A stretch of DNA of 64,000 bases from Flavobacteriaceae bacterium (GTDB lineage: Bacteria; Bacteroidota; Bacteroidia; Flavobacteriales; Flavobacteriaceae): positions 1 through 64,000 of the forward strand of contig JABSPM010000060.1 of the NCBI GenBank assembly GCA_013215095.1. The letters are read 5' to 3'. Within the stretch, counting starts at the first letter, position 1. Each line of letters opens with the position of its first letter. Shown here in pieces: positions 1-53,396 of the stretch. The position numbers and the translations under genes are program-made. Under the pieces are notes generated by a model. The model was not told the DNA's origin. It searched no databases and saw only the letters and a program-made list of their open reading frames with translations.

Positions 1-849
1 GAACTGCATAGGTACTTTAAGTAAACCGTTGAAAATTAACCCTATACGCATTTCTTTAATGGATTTTCCAGAGAGGTAACGTTGCACCTGACTTTGGTCT
101 GTGCCAAAATAGGAGAGCGCTAGGAAGCTTCCACCAATAATTCCACTCCAAAAGGTAAAACGGTTTTCGAGTTTAAAACTAAAATCTAAAACATTCATCT
201 TACCACTCGCCCCTGCAATATCCAAAGCTTTTTGGAAAGTAATACCATCAGGTAAATAGCTGATAATTAGAAAGAATGTAATAAACATTCCTGTAAATAT
301 TACTGCCATTTGATGTTTTTGAGTTACACTAACGGCTTTGGTTCCTCCAGATACGGTATAAATGATCACAAGAATTCCTATGACAATATTTAATAATGTT
401 AAATCCCAACCTAAAACAGCAGATAGAATTATTGCTGGTGCAAAAATAGTAATTCCGGCTGCTAGTCCTCTTTGAATTAAGAATAAGCTAGCGGTTAATG
501 TTCTTGTTTTTAGGTCAAATCTATCTTCTAGAAATTCGTAAGCTGTAAATACTTTTAAGCGGTGGTATAACGGAATAAAGACCATACAGATAATAACCAT
601 TGCAATTGGTACACCAAAATAAAATTGGACAAACCCCATACCACTATGAAAAGCCTGTCCTGGTGTTGATAAAAAGGTAATTGCGCTTGCTTGTGTTGCC
701 ATTACAGAAAGTCCGATAGTCCACCATTTGGTCTCGTTACCGCCTTTAATATAATCTTGTACATTTTTACTGCCTCTGGTTTGCCAAGTGCCATAGAGTA
801 CAATGGTAAGTAGTGTGATTGTTAATACAATCCAATCTAAATTTTGCAT
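1..849 (-). CDS. sodium:solute symporter (SSS/SLC5 family), 3' part missing
   Basis: The first 283 codons of a multi-pass Na+-coupled transporter are visible; the rest lies beyond the left edge. The start ATG is at 847-849. The protein opens with a hydrophobic segment (DWIVLTITLLTIVLYGTW) and carries family-typical stretches: GLSVMATQASAITFLSTPG early on, IYTVSGGTKAVSVTQKHQ after several membrane segments, and a later GTDQSQVQRYLSGKS loop. SSS proteins import sugars, amino acids, sialic acid or vitamins using the sodium gradient; the substrate cannot be read from the sequence. It follows the secreted PIG-L deacetylase on the same strand, with a broken small reading frame between them, so a joint role in uptake of a deacetylated sugar compound is an inference only. 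Confidence 0.9.
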   Translation of the reverse strand, partial: MQNLDWIVLTITLLTIVLYGTWQTRGSKNVQDYIKGGNETKWWTIGLSVMATQASAITFLSTPGQAFHSGMGFVQFYFGVPIAMVIICMVFIPLYHRLKVFTAYEFLEDRFDLKTRTLTASLFLIQRGLAAGITIFAPAIILSAVLGWDLTLLNIVIGILVIIYTVSGGTKAVSVTQKHQMAVIFTGMFITFFLIISYLPDGITFQKALDIAGASGKMNVLDFSFKLENRFTFWSGIIGGSFLALSYFGTDQSQVQRYLSGKSIKEMRIGLIFNGLLKVPMQF

Positions 850-39070: not shown

Positions 39071-39780
39071 GTGTGCACTTAGAAAGTTACGTGCTAAGCC
39101 ACATAACTACTTATAGTTTGCCGAGCAGGCAAACTGTATAAATTAATAGGTTTTGTGAACTGTATTTAAGATGCTGAAACCGACCCACCAATGTTGATGT
39201 ATAGGAATAGACGTTAAATCACCTAAAGGTACATTGGTAAAGCGCTATTGTATTGCCCGTTTAGGAAACGGATAATTGATAATTATTCAGGTAATATTAG
39301 AAGAGATGAGCTAAATTTAACCCCTTACGAGGTGTTGAGAAGTAGGAACATGCTGTCAAAAGCTACGTAGTATGATATGGAGTTAAAACGTATAACGGCA
39401 ACCTATTTACTGGTTATACGGCAGGCGTCATTCATGGGGCATGAATTCTAATTATGGGTAATTACGGAACTCGGGAATTTGAATATAAATGTAACGAGAA
39501 AATCATAATAGGAAAACTCTAGAGGATGAAAACCAATGTTATATTCAGAGGCGGAATAATCCGTATTAGTGATGAAGGTTTTGTAATGAAACTGGAGTGA
39601 AGATATGAGGTGATACAGTTGCAATGCGTTTAATAACTCAATGGAAATAAAATGAGGAAGATTTTAGGTAATGCAACAAAATCAATTAGATTTGTATAAC
39701 AAGAGCCATATGATTGATGGGAGACTATCACGTAAGGTTCTGTGAGAGGTTTGGGTTGAAATTGCCCTTATCTATTCTAC
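39071..39780 (+). mobile_element. group II intron without reverse transcriptase ORF
   Basis: It begins with the 5' consensus GTGTG. Domain I stretches such as ACGGAACTCGGGAA (near 39463) are followed by the family-typical GAGGCGGAATAATCCGTATT and GTGATGAAGG region and TGGAGTGAAG (39594). Domain V lies at 39703-39740: GAGCC with the AGC triad, a GAGA tetraloop and closing GGTTC. A domain VI-like hairpin follows and the intron ends ...CTAC at about 39780. Domain IV is under 100 bases and has no maturase, so splicing or movement would need a protein from elsewhere. The domain V stem has an A-A opposition and a displaced bulge, perhaps decay. The 3' end is approximate. Confidence 0.85.
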
Positions 39781-48351: not shown

Positions 48352-49650
48352 TTATCTAAATTGAATTAAAAAATGTTTTAAATCTTCATATGATGAAATT
48401 TTTATGGAAACTTTTGGTTTGTCAATTACGGTTTTAATTTGATTAGGAATTTGAAGTTTTTTTCCAAGAGTAGGTTCAACAACATCTAAGAATTTTGAGG
48501 GGTGTGCGGTTTCTAAAAACACACAATGAACGTTTGGATGTTCCTTGATATAACATTGAGCTGCTAGGTAACCAATAGCGCCGTGTGGGTCTGCAATGTA
48601 GTTGTATTTGTTATAAATCGTATTCATAGCCGTTTTGGTTGCTGCGTCACTAAAACTATAAGCGCTTAAGTTATTTTGGAGTGTCTTAAAATCATGATGA
48701 TACATTTCTTGAATTCTAATAAAATTACTAGGATTACCTACATCCATAGCATTGGAAAGTGTTTGTACGCTTGCTTTAGGTTGGTACTCTTGTGTTTTGA
48801 GGTATTCACTAACCACATTATTAGCATTATTAGCAGCGATAAAGTGCTTTATAGGAAGTCCGAGTTGTTGTGCCATAATTCCTGCACATATATTTCCAAA
48901 ATTACCACTAGGTACAGAGAATACAATGTCTTGATATTTCGATTTTAATGTTTTGTAAGCAAACATGAAATATAGAAGTTGTGGTAACCAGCGTGCTATA
49001 TTGATAGAGTTGGCAGAAGTGAGTTGCATATTACGTGTTAATTCATCATCCAAAAATGCGCGTTTAACCATATCTTGACAATCGTCAAAAACACCATCAA
49101 CTTCTAAGGCTGTAATATTTTGTCCGAGTGTGGTTAATTGTTTTTCTTGAATAGCACTAACTTTTCCTGATGGATAGAGAATGATTACGTTTACACCTTT
49201 TACTCCTAAAAAACCATTGGCAACGGCACCTCCAGTATCTCCAGATGTTGCAACTAAAACTGTCACTTCATTGGTGTTATCCTGATTAAAATAGCCCAAG
49301 CATCTTGCCATAAAACGAGCGCCAACATCTTTAAAAGCCATAGTTGGACCATGAAATAACTCAAGTGTAGAAATCTGATCATTTAATTCGATAATAGGGA
49401 AATCAAAGGATAGTGTTTCTTTTATAATTTGTTTTAAGGTATTTTCGGGTATTTCAGGTACAATAAATTGTTGCAGTGCTTCAAAAGCAATGGTCTCATT
49501 GGAATACTGTTCAATGTGTTTAAAAAATGTTTTAGATAAACGTCTAATTTGTTTTGGGAAATAAAGTCCTTTGTCAGGAGCAAGTCCTTTAATTACAGCG
49601 TTTTTAAAACTTGATATTTCGTTTTTATTGTTTAGTGAGAAATAGTTCAT
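48352..49650 (-). CDS. thrC: threonine synthase
   Basis: A 432-residue PLP enzyme that converts O-phosphohomoserine to threonine. The cofactor lysine is Lys107 in HGPTMAFKDVGARFMAR; VLVATSGDTGGAVANGFLG and VPSGNFGNICAGIMAQQLG bind the phosphate. Length and N-terminal layout (SLNNKNEISSFKNAVIKGLAPDKGLYFP) fit the ThrC type of proteobacteria and Bacteroidota. Its ATG overlaps the thrB stop by one base (TAATG), and it is the last gene of the thrABC operon. Confidence 0.96.
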   Translation of the reverse strand: MNYFSLNNKNEISSFKNAVIKGLAPDKGLYFPKQIRRLSKTFFKHIEQYSNETIAFEALQQFIVPEIPENTLKQIIKETLSFDFPIIELNDQISTLELFHGPTMAFKDVGARFMARCLGYFNQDNTNEVTVLVATSGDTGGAVANGFLGVKGVNVIILYPSGKVSAIQEKQLTTLGQNITALEVDGVFDDCQDMVKRAFLDDELTRNMQLTSANSINIARWLPQLLYFMFAYKTLKSKYQDIVFSVPSGNFGNICAGIMAQQLGLPIKHFIAANNANNVVSEYLKTQEYQPKASVQTLSNAMDVGNPSNFIRIQEMYHHDFKTLQNNLSAYSFSDAATKTAMNTIYNKYNYIADPHGAIGYLAAQCYIKEHPNVHCVFLETAHPSKFLDVVEPTLGKKLQIPNQIKTVIDKPKVSIKISSYEDLKHFLIQFR

Positions 49651-50576
49651 TAGCTTAAGATTTTAATTCCTTTAGTATTAATTTTAGAAACATGTGTTTC
49701 AAATTTTATTTGGGTAGGTTTGTAGCTTTTAATCATAGCTTGTTCTATGGCTTTTGCCGCGTCTAAACCTTTAGATAATGTGAAAATTGAGGGTCCAGAA
49801 CCAGAAATTGCACAGCCTAATGCACCAGCACACATTGCTGCATATTTGACATTGTCAAAATATGGAATGAGGTTTTTACGGTAGGGTTCCACAATATTAT
49901 CTTGCAAGGCACGATGAAGCAGTTTGTAATCGTTGCAGTGTAAAGCGTGAACTAGACTTCCAAGATTTGCCCATTGCGTAATCGCATCTTTAAGAGAAAC
50001 TTCATTTGGTAAAACGGCACGAGCAGCTGCGGTTTTTATTTCAATTTGTGGATGAATAATTGTTGCATACAAATGCTGTGGTGTAGGAAGTTGTAAAATA
50101 TCTAAAGGAGCTGTACTTTTTACCAGCGTAAATCCACCATAAATAGCTGGAGCCAAATTATCGGCATGTTCACTTTTGCTTGCTAGAGCTTCACCTTTCA
50201 TAGCGAAATAGGTAAGCTGTTGTTTGGTAAAGGGCTGTCCTAGAAGTTCATTCATGCCGAATACACTTCCTACAGCACTTGCAGCACTACTGCCAATACC
50301 ACTGCCAGGTTTAATTTTTTTGTAAATCTCTATTTCAAAACCACATTTTGGTTTTATGTGATTATACATGGCTAAGGCAGAAACTCCAGCTACATTAGCT
50401 TCGGTTTCATAAGGTAAATCATACCCTTCTATATGTGTAATTTCAATCCCTTTTTTAGTTGTTTTTCGGATGACCATTTCATCTCCTTGACTGTCTAAGC
50501 AAAAGCCCAATACATCAAAACCACAAGCGACATTTGCTACTGTTGCTGGTGAAAAAATTTTTATTTCGTTTTTCAT
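49650..50576 (-). CDS. thrB: homoserine kinase
   Basis: A 308-residue GHMP kinase that phosphorylates homoserine with ATP. The ATP-binding glycine motif is PGSGIGSSAASAVGSVFG (about residues 91-108); FSPATVANVACGFDVLGF at the N-terminus and CAISGSGPSIFTLS near the C-terminus are the other two GHMP motifs. It lies between thrA and thrC on one transcript and is coupled to thrC by overlapping stop and start. Confidence 0.96.
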   Translation of the reverse strand: MKNEIKIFSPATVANVACGFDVLGFCLDSQGDEMVIRKTTKKGIEITHIEGYDLPYETEANVAGVSALAMYNHIKPKCGFEIEIYKKIKPGSGIGSSAASAVGSVFGMNELLGQPFTKQQLTYFAMKGEALASKSEHADNLAPAIYGGFTLVKSTAPLDILQLPTPQHLYATIIHPQIEIKTAAARAVLPNEVSLKDAITQWANLGSLVHALHCNDYKLLHRALQDNIVEPYRKNLIPYFDNVKYAAMCAGALGCAISGSGPSIFTLSKGLDAAKAIEQAMIKSYKPTQIKFETHVSKINTKGIKILS

Positions 50577-50662: not shown

Positions 50663-53116
50663 TTAGGTATTGGCGATTCTAATAATATCGGCAAAAAGTC
50701 CAGATGCCGTTACTTCTGCACCAGCTCCAGCACCTTTGATAATCATAGGTTGATCTGGATAACGTTCTGTATAAAACATAACGATATTATCTTTTCCTTC
50801 TAGATTATAGAATGGATGGTCTTCCGGAATTTCTTTTAGACCAACAGAGGCTTTATTATTGTGAAATGTTGCGACATACTTGAGGCGACAATGCTTTGCT
50901 ACTGCTGAAGCATATAGATCTTGATAATAAACTTCATCGGTAATTAAAGTTTGGTAAAAATCCTCAACACTATCTGCTTTTAATCCCGAATCTGATAAAA
51001 AAGAAACGTTTTGAATATCTTCAAGATTCAGTCGTGTTCCACTTTCTCTAGCCAAAATTAATATTTTTCGCGCTACATCTACACCACTTAAATCTATTCG
51101 TGGGTCTGGTTCTGTGTAGCCTTCAATTTGTGCTTGTTTAACGATGTCATGAAATTTCGTGGCTGCATTAAAATGATTAAATATATAGTTTAAACTGCCC
51201 GAAAGTACGGCTTGTATCTTATGTACTTTATCTCCAGAATTAATACAATGATTTAAGGTGTCTATAACTGGAAGTCCTGCACCAACATTGGTTTCAAATA
51301 AGAAATGAGCATTGTATTTTCTAGATAGGTGTTTGAGTTCATCATAAGTCTCTATAGCGCTAGAACATGCAATTTTATTACAGGCAATAACGCTTATGCT
51401 TTCTTTTAAATAAGCTCTGTAGATTTGTGCAACATTGGCATTAGCTGTAATATCTATAAAGATAGAGTTGCGTAAGTTGAGCTGTTTTATATGACTTAAA
51501 AAACCTTCGATACTTGCAGGTTGTCCTTCATTTAGTTGTGTTTTCCATGAGTTCAAATCAATGCCATTAGAGTCAAAAAGCATAGTTTTGGAATTTGCCA
51601 AACCAATAACTCTAAGATTAATATTTAGTCGTTTTATAATGTGTTTTTGCTGTTTGAGAATCTGACTAATAAGCCGTTCACCAACATTACCAACACCAGT
51701 AATGAATAAATTGATTTGCTTAGTTTTAAGTTCAAAAAATTCTTCATGTAATGTGTTTAAGGCTTTTTTGACATCATGGTTTGCAATCACAGCAGAAATA
51801 TTACGTTCTGAAGCACCTTGAGCAATAGCTCTAATATTAACATTGTTTTTGCCCAAACTACTAAACATTTTCCCGCTAATACCTTGATGACTTTTCATGT
51901 TGTCACCAACAATGGCAATAATAGAAAGACCAGATTCTATGCGTATAGGGTCAATTTTTTTTAAGATAATTTCGTTTTCAAACGTACTGTCAATACACGC
52001 TTTTGCTAGACTAGAATCATCTTCTGAAATTCCTATACATATAGAGTGTTCAGATGAGGCTTGTGTAATCAGAATAATATTAATTTTTTCTTGAGATAAG
52101 GTTTCAAATAAACGCTTTGAAAATCCAGGAATACCAACCATTCCATGTCCCTGAAGTGTTAATAGAGCGATGGCATTGATGTTACTAATTCCTTTTACAG
52201 GTTGTAAGACGTTGTTTTTACTCTCACTACTTATAAGCGTGCCTTTAGCTTCGGGTTCCATTGTATTTTTGATTACTATAGGAATTGATTTATCTAAAAC
52301 GGGTTGCACCGTTGGTGGATATAATACTTTGGCACCAAAATGAGATAATTCAACCGCTTCTTCATAGGATAATTGTGAAATAGGAAAAGCTTGTTTTACA
52401 ATGCTTGGATTGGTGGTATACATACCACTAACATCAGTCCATATTTGTAGAGTTTTAGCATCTAATGCAGCAGCTATAATTGCAGCAGTGTAGTCAGAAC
52501 CACCACGTCCTAAGGTTGTGATTTCACCACATTTAGATTTTGAAATAAACCCAGGTAACAGTGTGACACGGCTAGAGTTATTTTTAAAATATGTTTTAAT
52601 ATTATGAGTTGTTAGGCTAAAATCAACATTTGCGCTCGTATGATTTGTATCTGTAATGATAAGTTCCTGTACATTTTTTAATACAATATCTATGTTGGAA
52701 AGTTCCATCGTTTTAGATAGAATTAGGCTAGAAAATTGCTCTCCAAAACTCAATAATTTATCTGTAGTCTTTGGGGACAATTCATTAATCAGATATACAC
52801 CGTCTAGTAGGCGTTCTAAATGGATAAATCTGTCTTTTAGGATTTTAAGTGTTGTGTCAAATGAGAATGCATCCTGTAGTAAGTCTTTGCATATTAATAG
52901 GTGCTTAGATTTAATGTCATTTAAGGTCTGCTTGTAGGTGATATCTTTTTTTGCAGCAAATTTAGCAGCTTTAATAAGTTGGTCTGTAACACCACCTACG
53001 GCAGATACTACAACTACTAATTGCTCGTTTTGGGATAGGTTTTTGACAATACGGATGACTTGTGCTATAGCACTAGAAGAACCCACAGAAGTTCCTCCAA
53101 ATTTTAATACTTTCAT
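50663..53116 (-). CDS. thrA: bifunctional aspartokinase I / homoserine dehydrogenase I
   Basis: An 817-residue fusion catalysing the first and third steps from aspartate toward threonine. The aspartokinase domain begins MKVLKFGGTSVGSSSA and includes TTLGRGGSDYTAAIIAAALDA; two ACT domains (about 310-460) provide threonine feedback, with GISNINAIALLTLQGHGMVG. Homoserine dehydrogenase follows (INLFITGVGNVGERLISQIL near 465; EGYTEPDPRIDLSGVDVARK for catalysis). Full length. It heads thrABC and has a Thr-rich leader peptide 61 bases upstream, so control by attenuation is likely in addition to feedback. Confidence 0.96.
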   Translation of the reverse strand: MKVLKFGGTSVGSSSAIAQVIRIVKNLSQNEQLVVVVSAVGGVTDQLIKAAKFAAKKDITYKQTLNDIKSKHLLICKDLLQDAFSFDTTLKILKDRFIHLERLLDGVYLINELSPKTTDKLLSFGEQFSSLILSKTMELSNIDIVLKNVQELIITDTNHTSANVDFSLTTHNIKTYFKNNSSRVTLLPGFISKSKCGEITTLGRGGSDYTAAIIAAALDAKTLQIWTDVSGMYTTNPSIVKQAFPISQLSYEEAVELSHFGAKVLYPPTVQPVLDKSIPIVIKNTMEPEAKGTLISSESKNNVLQPVKGISNINAIALLTLQGHGMVGIPGFSKRLFETLSQEKINIILITQASSEHSICIGISEDDSSLAKACIDSTFENEIILKKIDPIRIESGLSIIAIVGDNMKSHQGISGKMFSSLGKNNVNIRAIAQGASERNISAVIANHDVKKALNTLHEEFFELKTKQINLFITGVGNVGERLISQILKQQKHIIKRLNINLRVIGLANSKTMLFDSNGIDLNSWKTQLNEGQPASIEGFLSHIKQLNLRNSIFIDITANANVAQIYRAYLKESISVIACNKIACSSAIETYDELKHLSRKYNAHFLFETNVGAGLPVIDTLNHCINSGDKVHKIQAVLSGSLNYIFNHFNAATKFHDIVKQAQIEGYTEPDPRIDLSGVDVARKILILARESGTRLNLEDIQNVSFLSDSGLKADSVEDFYQTLITDEVYYQDLYASAVAKHCRLKYVATFHNNKASVGLKEIPEDHPFYNLEGKDNIVMFYTERYPDQPMIIKGAGAGAEVTASGLFADIIRIANT

Positions 53117-53177
53117 GATGAAAAGCTTTTAATAAAATAAAAAAATAGGTAGAGTAAATGTGACGAAAGAATATATA

Positions 53178-53273
53178 TTAACAACCCAAAAGGGTCGTTG
53201 TTGTGGTATAAGCAAAAGTGTTTACTGAAACGTAAACTACGGTCGATGTGTTATTTTGCTTTAAATTATCCAT
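53178..53273 (-). CDS. threonine-rich leader peptide of thrABC
   Basis: A 31-codon frame starting MDNLKQNNTSTVV and ending AYTTTTTLLGC: eight of 31 residues are Thr, five in a row just before the end. It lies directly upstream of thrA on the same strand. The Thr codons (ACC ACA ACA ACG ACC) feed into the hairpin at 53180-53199. This is the arrangement of an amino-acid attenuator, in which ribosomes stalling at Thr codons change RNA folding. A longer frame from 53420 is open, but the ATG at 53271-53273 is the plausible start. Confidence 0.75.
   Translation of the reverse strand: MDNLKQNNTSTVVYVSVNTFAYTTTTTLLGC
53180..53237 (-). promoter_or_regulatory. candidate attenuator hairpins of the thr operon
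   Basis: On the transcript, stem 1 is GTTTAC-GTTTCA-GTAAAC (53220-53237), six perfect pairs within the leader ORF. Stem 2 is AACGACCC-TTTT-GGGTTGTT (53180-53199), eight pairs with one G-U, covering the last Thr, Leu-Leu-Gly-Cys codons. No strong T run follows stem 2, so a terminating or a ribosome-access mechanism are both possible. Confidence 0.6.
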
Positions 53274-53396
53274 TTTTAATGTAATACTTTCTAAAAAGTG
53301 TATTTTTACACAGACAAATGATGCATTTGTAAAAAACATATAACCACTTTTCAAAGTACTAAAGTAATATTCTTTTTTAATAATAACATATAATAG

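Follow-up and report, generated by a model that had tools for sequence, protein, structure and literature searches.

The threonine operon of enterobacteria is preceded by the thr leader (thrL; RF00506), which we take to combine a Thr/Ile-rich leader peptide encoded before thrABC with a control depending on the position of the ribosome. In the phylum Bacteroidota, a leader-peptide element called Bacteroid-trp (RF01692) occurs, and as far as the literature searched shows, leader-peptide control of amino-acid genes has been reported there only in outline. A transcriptome study of Flavobacterium psychrophilum mentions, in the part available, 'strong clues' that operons for amino acids are preceded by leader-peptide attenuators (PMC9723704), and the long 5′ untranslated regions of Bacteroides thetaiotaomicron, according to the section concerned, contain short open reading frames (ORFs) reminiscent of leader peptides (PMC7366714). 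Here we analysed a stretch of 64,000 nucleotides from a member of the Flavobacteriaceae (assembly GCA_013215095.1, contig JABSPM010000060.1, positions 1 to 64,000; hereafter called the window), in which thrABC is preceded by a small ORF rich in threonine codons and by a hairpin (H2) at its stop codon. To judge from the sequences of its relatives, this element is very probably a threonine-responsive leader. To the reading that it is an attenuator of thrABC, in which a waiting ribosome opens H2 and early termination, most likely by Rho, takes place otherwise, we assign a probability of about 0.6.

The leader comprises 31 codons including five consecutive Thr codons and ends 61 nt upstream of the thrA start codon (ATG at 53116), just as a preliminary description of the locus had stated. 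Six Thr are found among its last 14 codons, a number that was not equalled by any small ORF in 2000 dinucleotide shuffles, and a run of five Thr did not appear in any of 3000 shuffles. For comparison, 167 recognised thrA upstream regions were compiled at the level of the order and reduced to 152 by collapsing near-identical ones; among 60 loci fetched, L121, L125 and L127 were left out because their thrA start was not recognised. The preliminary description had asked whether the Thr-rich frame is kept in relatives, and this proved to be so, as 83 of the 152 regions, compared with 0.8% of the dinucleotide shuffles, contained a small ORF whose last 14 codons include four or more Thr. Thr and Ile together reached at least five in 117/152 regions (7.8% of shuffles); in many of the relatives' leaders, isoleucine is probably read together with threonine. 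When the count of at least four was applied to 14 other amino acids, the top values were 11/152 (Leu) and 8/152 (Phe). In an alignment of the window with 34 relatives, all gap runs within the leader were multiples of three (70/70; tail, 6/234), with the restriction that these sequences had been picked for having a leader, so that the total length, not the single gaps, was constrained to a multiple of three. The variability of the codon positions in the same sequences gave no frame signal (entropy 0.77, 0.89 and 0.90 at positions 1, 2 and 3). From this comparison it appears highly likely that the leader senses threonine.

A search throughout the class added 69 loci (of approximately 78 full-length ThrA matches listed), and the resulting 236 regions were condensed to 220 non-redundant ones. 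Loci with a leader and a hairpin at its stop codon, but without a U-run terminator, were designated type A, those with a U-run terminator type B. Type A was represented by 152 of the 220 regions, while 17 were flagged as having a U-run terminator and 51 had neither form; the corresponding figures were 126, 4 and 22 of 152 at order level, and 26, 13 and 29 of 68 at class level. The 26 class-level type-A loci stem from the families f1, f5, f27, f28, f30, f46, f49, f50, f62 and f81, some of these loci (e.g., L195 and L235) being loose cases of type A. In 151/152 type-A loci, the 5′ arm of H2 contains a Thr codon in frame, and the hairpin is overlapped or abutted by the stop codon in 123/152. Thr occupies codon -5 in 0.66 and codon -6 in 0.62 of the 152 type-A leaders, frequencies that are partly circular, since these leaders were selected partly by their Thr/Ile content, and for which the shuffle test is the fairer measure. 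Four loci (L014, L030, L056 and L100) possess 65-90 nt of extra sequence between the leader stop and thrA (147-174 nt vs approximately 82 nt).

Both hairpins that the preliminary description had drawn across the leader are contained in the predicted fold (z -2.34 and -2.61; 4 and 3 of 200 shuffles folded equally well). Covariation was studied in the alignment A1, consisting of the window and 34 close relatives (35 sequences). A structure of four helices yielded 65 cells with changes on both sides of a pair, compared with 28.8 in shuffles (0/500 reached 65) and a maximum of 42 in slid controls. In stem 1b, 7/8 pairs showed changes on both sides and 67.8% of the cells were paired. The respective values for H3, a hairpin located between the C-rich patch and thrA (A1 columns 166-191), were 6/8 and 88.3%. 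The outer stem 1 was paired in 76.7% of the cells and had one doubly changed pair, which is C-G in 17/35 sequences, G-C in the window and unpaired in 15. Thus, two stems besides H2 covary in the aligned close relatives, as the preliminary description had wished to see, while H2 itself hardly varies there: four pairs of its core are invariant and one outer pair is doubly changed in two sequences. RNAalifold predicted the four invariant H2 pairs and nothing else on the close alignment. Among more distant loci, the arms of H2 read CGGG/CCCG instead of CCCC/GGGG in L214, L216, L234 and L245 (similarly in L248), with the stop codon placed in the loop; all arm-swapped loci belong to one family-level group (f30) and were counted as one event.

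The region following H2 is peculiar in composition. The first 8 nt contain 3.38 T on average, with six or more T in 4/152 type-A loci, and the tail of the window, AATATATATTCTTTC, has no U-run. The earlier remark that no evident T run follows the second stem is right in substance, though a simple terminator scan flagged H2 of the window (1 found, 0.1 expected) on account of 5/8 T in one stretch of the tail. Between the leader stop and thrA, no U-run terminator was recognised in type A, which is part of the definition of this class. A and T are about equally frequent up to +13 after H2, followed by C at 0.3-0.43 around +16 to +21; the C-rich, G-poor stretch typically extends over 60-90 nt. From H2 to thrA, the 152 type-A loci have a C content of 0.174 and a G content of 0.076, and C amounts to at least twice G (C>=2G) in 102/152, compared with 8/150 in the same loci 400-250 nt upstream. 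In 12 type-B loci, the 50 nt that precede the terminator have C 0.143 and G 0.213, and C>=2G holds in 1/12. For the last 75 nt before thrA, C>=2G was found in 85/152 type-A loci vs 9/51 regions without a recognised form, and the upstream regions of other genes gave 16/220 vs 89/122 in the first set of type-A loci. The C-patch was on average 0.64 unpaired in folds. Thus, a weakly structured C-over-G region, as judged by composition, lies before the first gene as in Rho attenuation, and a gene for Rho is present in the own genome (PF07497, E 6.5e-35). Given the lack of a U-tract at H2 and the unusual richness in C and poverty in G of the RNA behind it, Rho would be the most likely terminating agent.

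From the leader, its codon bias and frame, H2 and the bias of the tail, all of which emerged from the comparison of sequences, we infer stalling of the ribosome, occlusion of the hairpin, early termination and, most conditionally, the participation of Rho. Transcription would start just upstream of the leader, which ribosomes would then translate. If charged tRNA-Thr is scarce, a ribosome would wait on the Thr codons. As these adjoin or enter the 5′ arm of H2, the waiting ribosome would keep the hairpin open by direct occlusion, with no separate antiterminator. If threonine is ample, the ribosome would reach the stop codon at the hairpin and leave, whereupon H2 would close and transcription would end before thrA. 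In the window, a ribosome at any of the five Thr codons would cover 6-8 of the 8 nt that form the 5′ arm of H2, given the footprint assumed; the control codons would thus place the ribosome on the hairpin, as direct occlusion demands. The role of H2 as the gate we consider rather probable. Termination by Rho is a more tentative proposal, to which we give somewhat less than even odds and which draws on composition, the absent U-tract and the contrast with U-run lineages.

Alternatively, H2 might itself be an intrinsic terminator using the A/U-alternating tail in place of a U-tract, with the rest of the scheme unchanged. H2 is indeed GC-rich and followed by approximately 13 nt of A/U, which is in line with the flag raised by the terminator scan, and actinobacterial ilvB leaders, as far as the source was accessible, offer a precedent for control codons lying over a candidate terminator, there with poly-U (PMC1262725). 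The low number of T after H2 argues against this possibility, as does the fact that T-runs are present in type-B thr leaders and in the trp attenuator of the relatives, which ends in GACAAGCCTT with 5-7 T in the next 8 nt (12/12 loci viewed). Moreover, the C-over-G tail would be left unexplained, and we regard an intrinsic terminator as rather unlikely.

Unlikely, too, is a control of translation or mRNA stability, by which the position of the leader ribosome would alter the translation or decay of thrA without early termination. Flavobacterial initiation is described, in the portion of the report concerned, as proceeding without Shine-Dalgarno sequences and as tuned by mRNA structure (PMC6847099), and the covarying H3 of close relatives, to which the attenuator model preferred here gives no role, speaks for such a control. 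The window, however, shows only a weak A/U hairpin at the place of H3. A sequestration of the thrA start was rejected by folds of those 135 among the 152 type-A loci in which H2 and thrA are less than 115 nt apart; opening or closing H2 left the modelled accessibility of the start unaltered (mean change -0.007, sd 0.037). The suggestion of the preliminary description that ribosome stalling may free the thrA start did not hold in these models.

It is improbable that H2 acts as a pause hairpin which retains the RNA polymerase for coupling and that a subsequent termination step escaped detection. The distance from H2 to a UUC(C)G-like patch does vary rather little (TTC.?G occurs at +11..28 in 51% vs 16% of shuffled sequences), but it exceeds the 10-12 nt of hairpin-stabilised pauses, and by class definition type-A loci contain no later U-run terminator. 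Just as improbable is a classical attenuator whose mutually exclusive antiterminator was overlooked. Stem 1b, which is well supported, and stem 1, which is weakly supported, resemble a 1:2 hairpin. In a swap test of 122 loci, however, pairing between leader and tail was not species-specific (mean z -0.16; 80 close loci, -0.01, sem 0.14), although the 42 distant loci gave a weak hint of it (mean z -0.44, sem 0.18). The long-range helix ACGGAC/GTCCGT noticed by eye (e.g., L130, L135 and L140) was rejected as a general feature by this test. The tail was also rejected as an alternative partner (antiterminator or anti-rut) of the H2 3′ arm, as in the folds of the 135 loci with the 5′ arm blocked, this arm did not pair better with the tail of its own locus than with shuffled ones (0.471 vs 0.531). 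Since no second RNA state was found, the presence of the ribosome on H2 is the simplest switch. Finally, a chance Thr-rich frame without function, for which nothing but its short length speaks, is contradicted by conservation, shuffle tests and frame-keeping gaps and can practically be dismissed.

Several points weigh against the Rho-type attenuator that we prefer. H2 would also be covered by a ribosome that has arrived at the stop codon, and the hairpin could close only after its release. Across type A, only 421 of the 683 Thr codons in the last 14 positions would put the ribosome on the 5′ arm (at least 3 nt counted). Covariation of H2 appears mainly in one distant lineage, its core pairs being invariant among the 35 close sequences. 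By the criteria used, 51/220 loci fit neither form, at least one of which (L102) is a missed type A, and as the loci are related, the counts are not independent and overstate independence. The link to Rho is one of composition. As a motif, the C-rich patch is loosely defined (TCCG in 30% vs 5% of shuffled sequences), and an excess of C over G, though a smaller one, is also seen in the leader ORF before H2 (C 0.205, G 0.113; C>=2G in 69/152). The contrast is also weaker at order level, where C>=2G applies to 6/22 regions without a recognised form. As to the contrast with type B, some of the 50-nt segments compared include leader sequence, and ten of the 12 loci represent one family-level group (f53).

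These 12 type-B loci were judged clear by eye out of the 17 flagged (L118, L158, L213, L215 and L249 were left out); the two outside f53 (L136 and L149) belong to the window's own family. In at least one family-level lineage, the threonine-reading leader is thus retained but combined with a U-run terminator, and the exchange of output forms is documented by about two or three lineages. Three of six type-B leaders compared (L217, L219 and L246) matched the RF00506 Thr_leader model below its cut-off (32.9-40.5 bits, cut-off 55), and may be missed members of this family or cases of convergence. As a generalisation, which we offer with reserve and consider doubtful rather than probable, the type-A element would be a widespread thr-specific attenuator without terminator and antiterminator, in which a starved ribosome opens the stop-codon hairpin and the C-rich tail hands the decision to Rho.

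A sequence model of H2 and its flanks (R1), which was searched in 40 genomes, gave 20 matches at E < 0.01, of which 15 were located upstream of thrA, one upstream of thrBC and four elsewhere. Of the latter, three fall within unrelated coding genes (G015:C23, G001:C22 and G131:C11) and one (G009:C21) was not placed; as R1 misses many type-A copies, the absence of matches elsewhere, e.g., at other amino-acid genes, says little. The thrBC case (L287, G127:C14; E 9.2e-6) has the leader MNKIIGRHITLTSTPAITLGGLLICTTTHTITPWG, which ends 120 nt before thrB, followed by thrC, and its homoserine kinase and threonine synthase genes exceed the NCBIfam cut-offs. An exact motif pattern matched the window locus alone in the own genome (found twice, overlapping).

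The features of the locus are compiled in Table 1. The products of thrA, thrB and thrC downstream of the leader all surpass their NCBIfam cut-offs. Upstream of the leader, the window holds a box which was placed by eye and deviates from TAnnTTTG, the -7 consensus of sigma-A according to the part consulted of PMC9723704. Among the 126 order-level type-A loci, 116 have a TAnnTTTG box no more than 75 nt ahead of the point where the leader begins, at a median gap of 19 nt (shuffles, 8%). Between H2 and thrA, 23/126 of these loci contain such a box (6% in shuffles), which may serve in some species as a bypass promoter around the leader. Directly upstream of the leader's -7-like box lies a perfect inverted repeat, ACAAATG-CAT-CATTTGT (53314-53330, minus strand), possibly an operator and possibly due to chance. 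On the plus strand, approximately 14 kb from the thr leader, Rfam matches to group II introns were noted (RF01999 at 39173-39292, RF00029 at 39701-39780).

Table 1. Features of the thr locus in the window.
Feature	Positions	Strand	Basis and remarks
thrA, bifunctional aspartate kinase/homoserine dehydrogenase I	50663..53116	-	NF006959, 1026.7 bits (cut-off 726)
thrB, homoserine kinase	49650..50576	-	TIGR00191, 237 bits (cut-off 168.25)
thrC, threonine synthase	48352..49650	-	TIGR00260, 286.3 bits (cut-off 167.1)
Promoter -7-like box TACACTTT	53295..53302	-	Sequence
Leader ORF, 31 codons, MDNLKQNNTSTVVYVSVNTFAYTTTTTLLGC*	53178..53273	-	ATG at 53273, TAA ending at 53178
Stem 1, outer 5′ arm AAGCAAAA	53254..53261	-	Predicted fold; weakly supported
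Stem 1b, 5′ arm GTTTAC	53232..53237	-	Predicted fold, alignment
Stem 1b, 3′ arm GTAAAC	53220..53225	-	Predicted fold, alignment
Stem 1, outer 3′ arm TTTTGCTT	53210..53217	-	Predicted fold, alignment
Control codons ACC ACA ACA ACG ACC (five consecutive Thr)	53193..53207	-	Sequence
H2, stop-codon hairpin AACGACCC-TTTT-GGGTTGTT	53180..53199	-	Overlaps Thr codons and first base of stop codon
C-over-G tail, C 11 and G 2 of 63; rut-like	53117..53179	-	Composition; patch TCTTTCGTCAC at 53170-53160
Weak A/U hairpin TTTTTA-TTTTAT-TAAAAG	53126..53143	-	Predicted fold alone; possible counterpart of the relatives' H3

No account of this thr element was found in the literature searched, which left most subscription papers out of reach. 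Comparative predictions of attenuators were reportedly made by Vitreschak 2004 and Lopatovskaya 2010, the former also naming Bacteroidetes/Chlorobi, and a thr attenuator of the phylum may already be among these predictions. The preliminary description knew of no characterised case in Bacteroidota, but leader-peptide regulation is not without example in the phylum, which has Bacteroid-trp and, by the part of the study available, clues for leader attenuation in F. psychrophilum (PMC9723704). Being compact and found in many cultured species, the element is well suited to tests. It raises the question of how attenuation functions in the absence of a U-tract when the trp attenuator of the same bacteria possesses one, and the two output forms, which different lineages use at this one operon, lend themselves directly to comparison.

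Compared with thrL, the flavobacterial element shares the peptide, its place before thrABC and the dependence on ribosome position. It differs from thrL in that it has no U-run terminator, that an antiterminator was not found and that the control codons and the stop codon lie in or at the hairpin. Measured against a classical attenuator, the type-A loci have the leader codons for the operon's own amino acid, but neither a U-tract terminator nor, apart from the weak hint in the distant loci, an antiterminator was recognised in them. The view that the logic of a threonine attenuator is here combined with a sequence unrelated to the enterobacterial leader was supported, as an Rfam search of the window's thr leader region gave no match at E up to 10, including RF00506 and RF01692. 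Among 14 type-A loci compared with RF00506, there was one weak match (L157, 32.5 bits, cut-off 55), which lies upstream of the element.

Bacteroid-trp, the leader-peptide element of the same phylum, matched 29/60 relatives at E<=0.001 (24 over its cut-off) and gave no match in the own genome at this threshold. At least six genomes (G001, G021, G026, G030, G031 and G032) contain it together with a type-A thr leader. It differs from the latter by its three Trp codons, a T-run and, as a separate segment, a CGTCGTGA-like sequence with complementarity to the terminator.

Escherichia coli pyrBI, which differs in sensing UTP, and actinobacterial ilvB leaders are comparable with the thr element in that the ribosome would occlude the hairpin directly. 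The codon runs of ilvB overlap the hairpin as well; the ilvB hairpins differ in having poly-U, and codon changes were without effect in Streptomyces coelicolor, as stated in the passages available (PMC1262725). The E. coli tna leader (tnaC) and predicted mycobacterial cys leaders resemble the thr element in possessing a leader ORF, no U-run terminator and a pyrimidine-rich tail before the first gene. According to the part of the source consulted, tnaC responds to free tryptophan (PMC8429421), in contrast to the codon-based signal and the hairpin over the stop codon of the thr element. For the mycobacterial leaders, Rho-type control is, in the section concerned, a weak prediction with sites that the authors call non-conserved (PMC1262725). 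The structured 5′ regions of F. psychrophilum are reported to represent leader-peptide attenuation upstream of amino-acid genes, as proposed here, and in the section of that study which deals with conserved elements, pheA and hisG are named and thr is not (PMC9723704).

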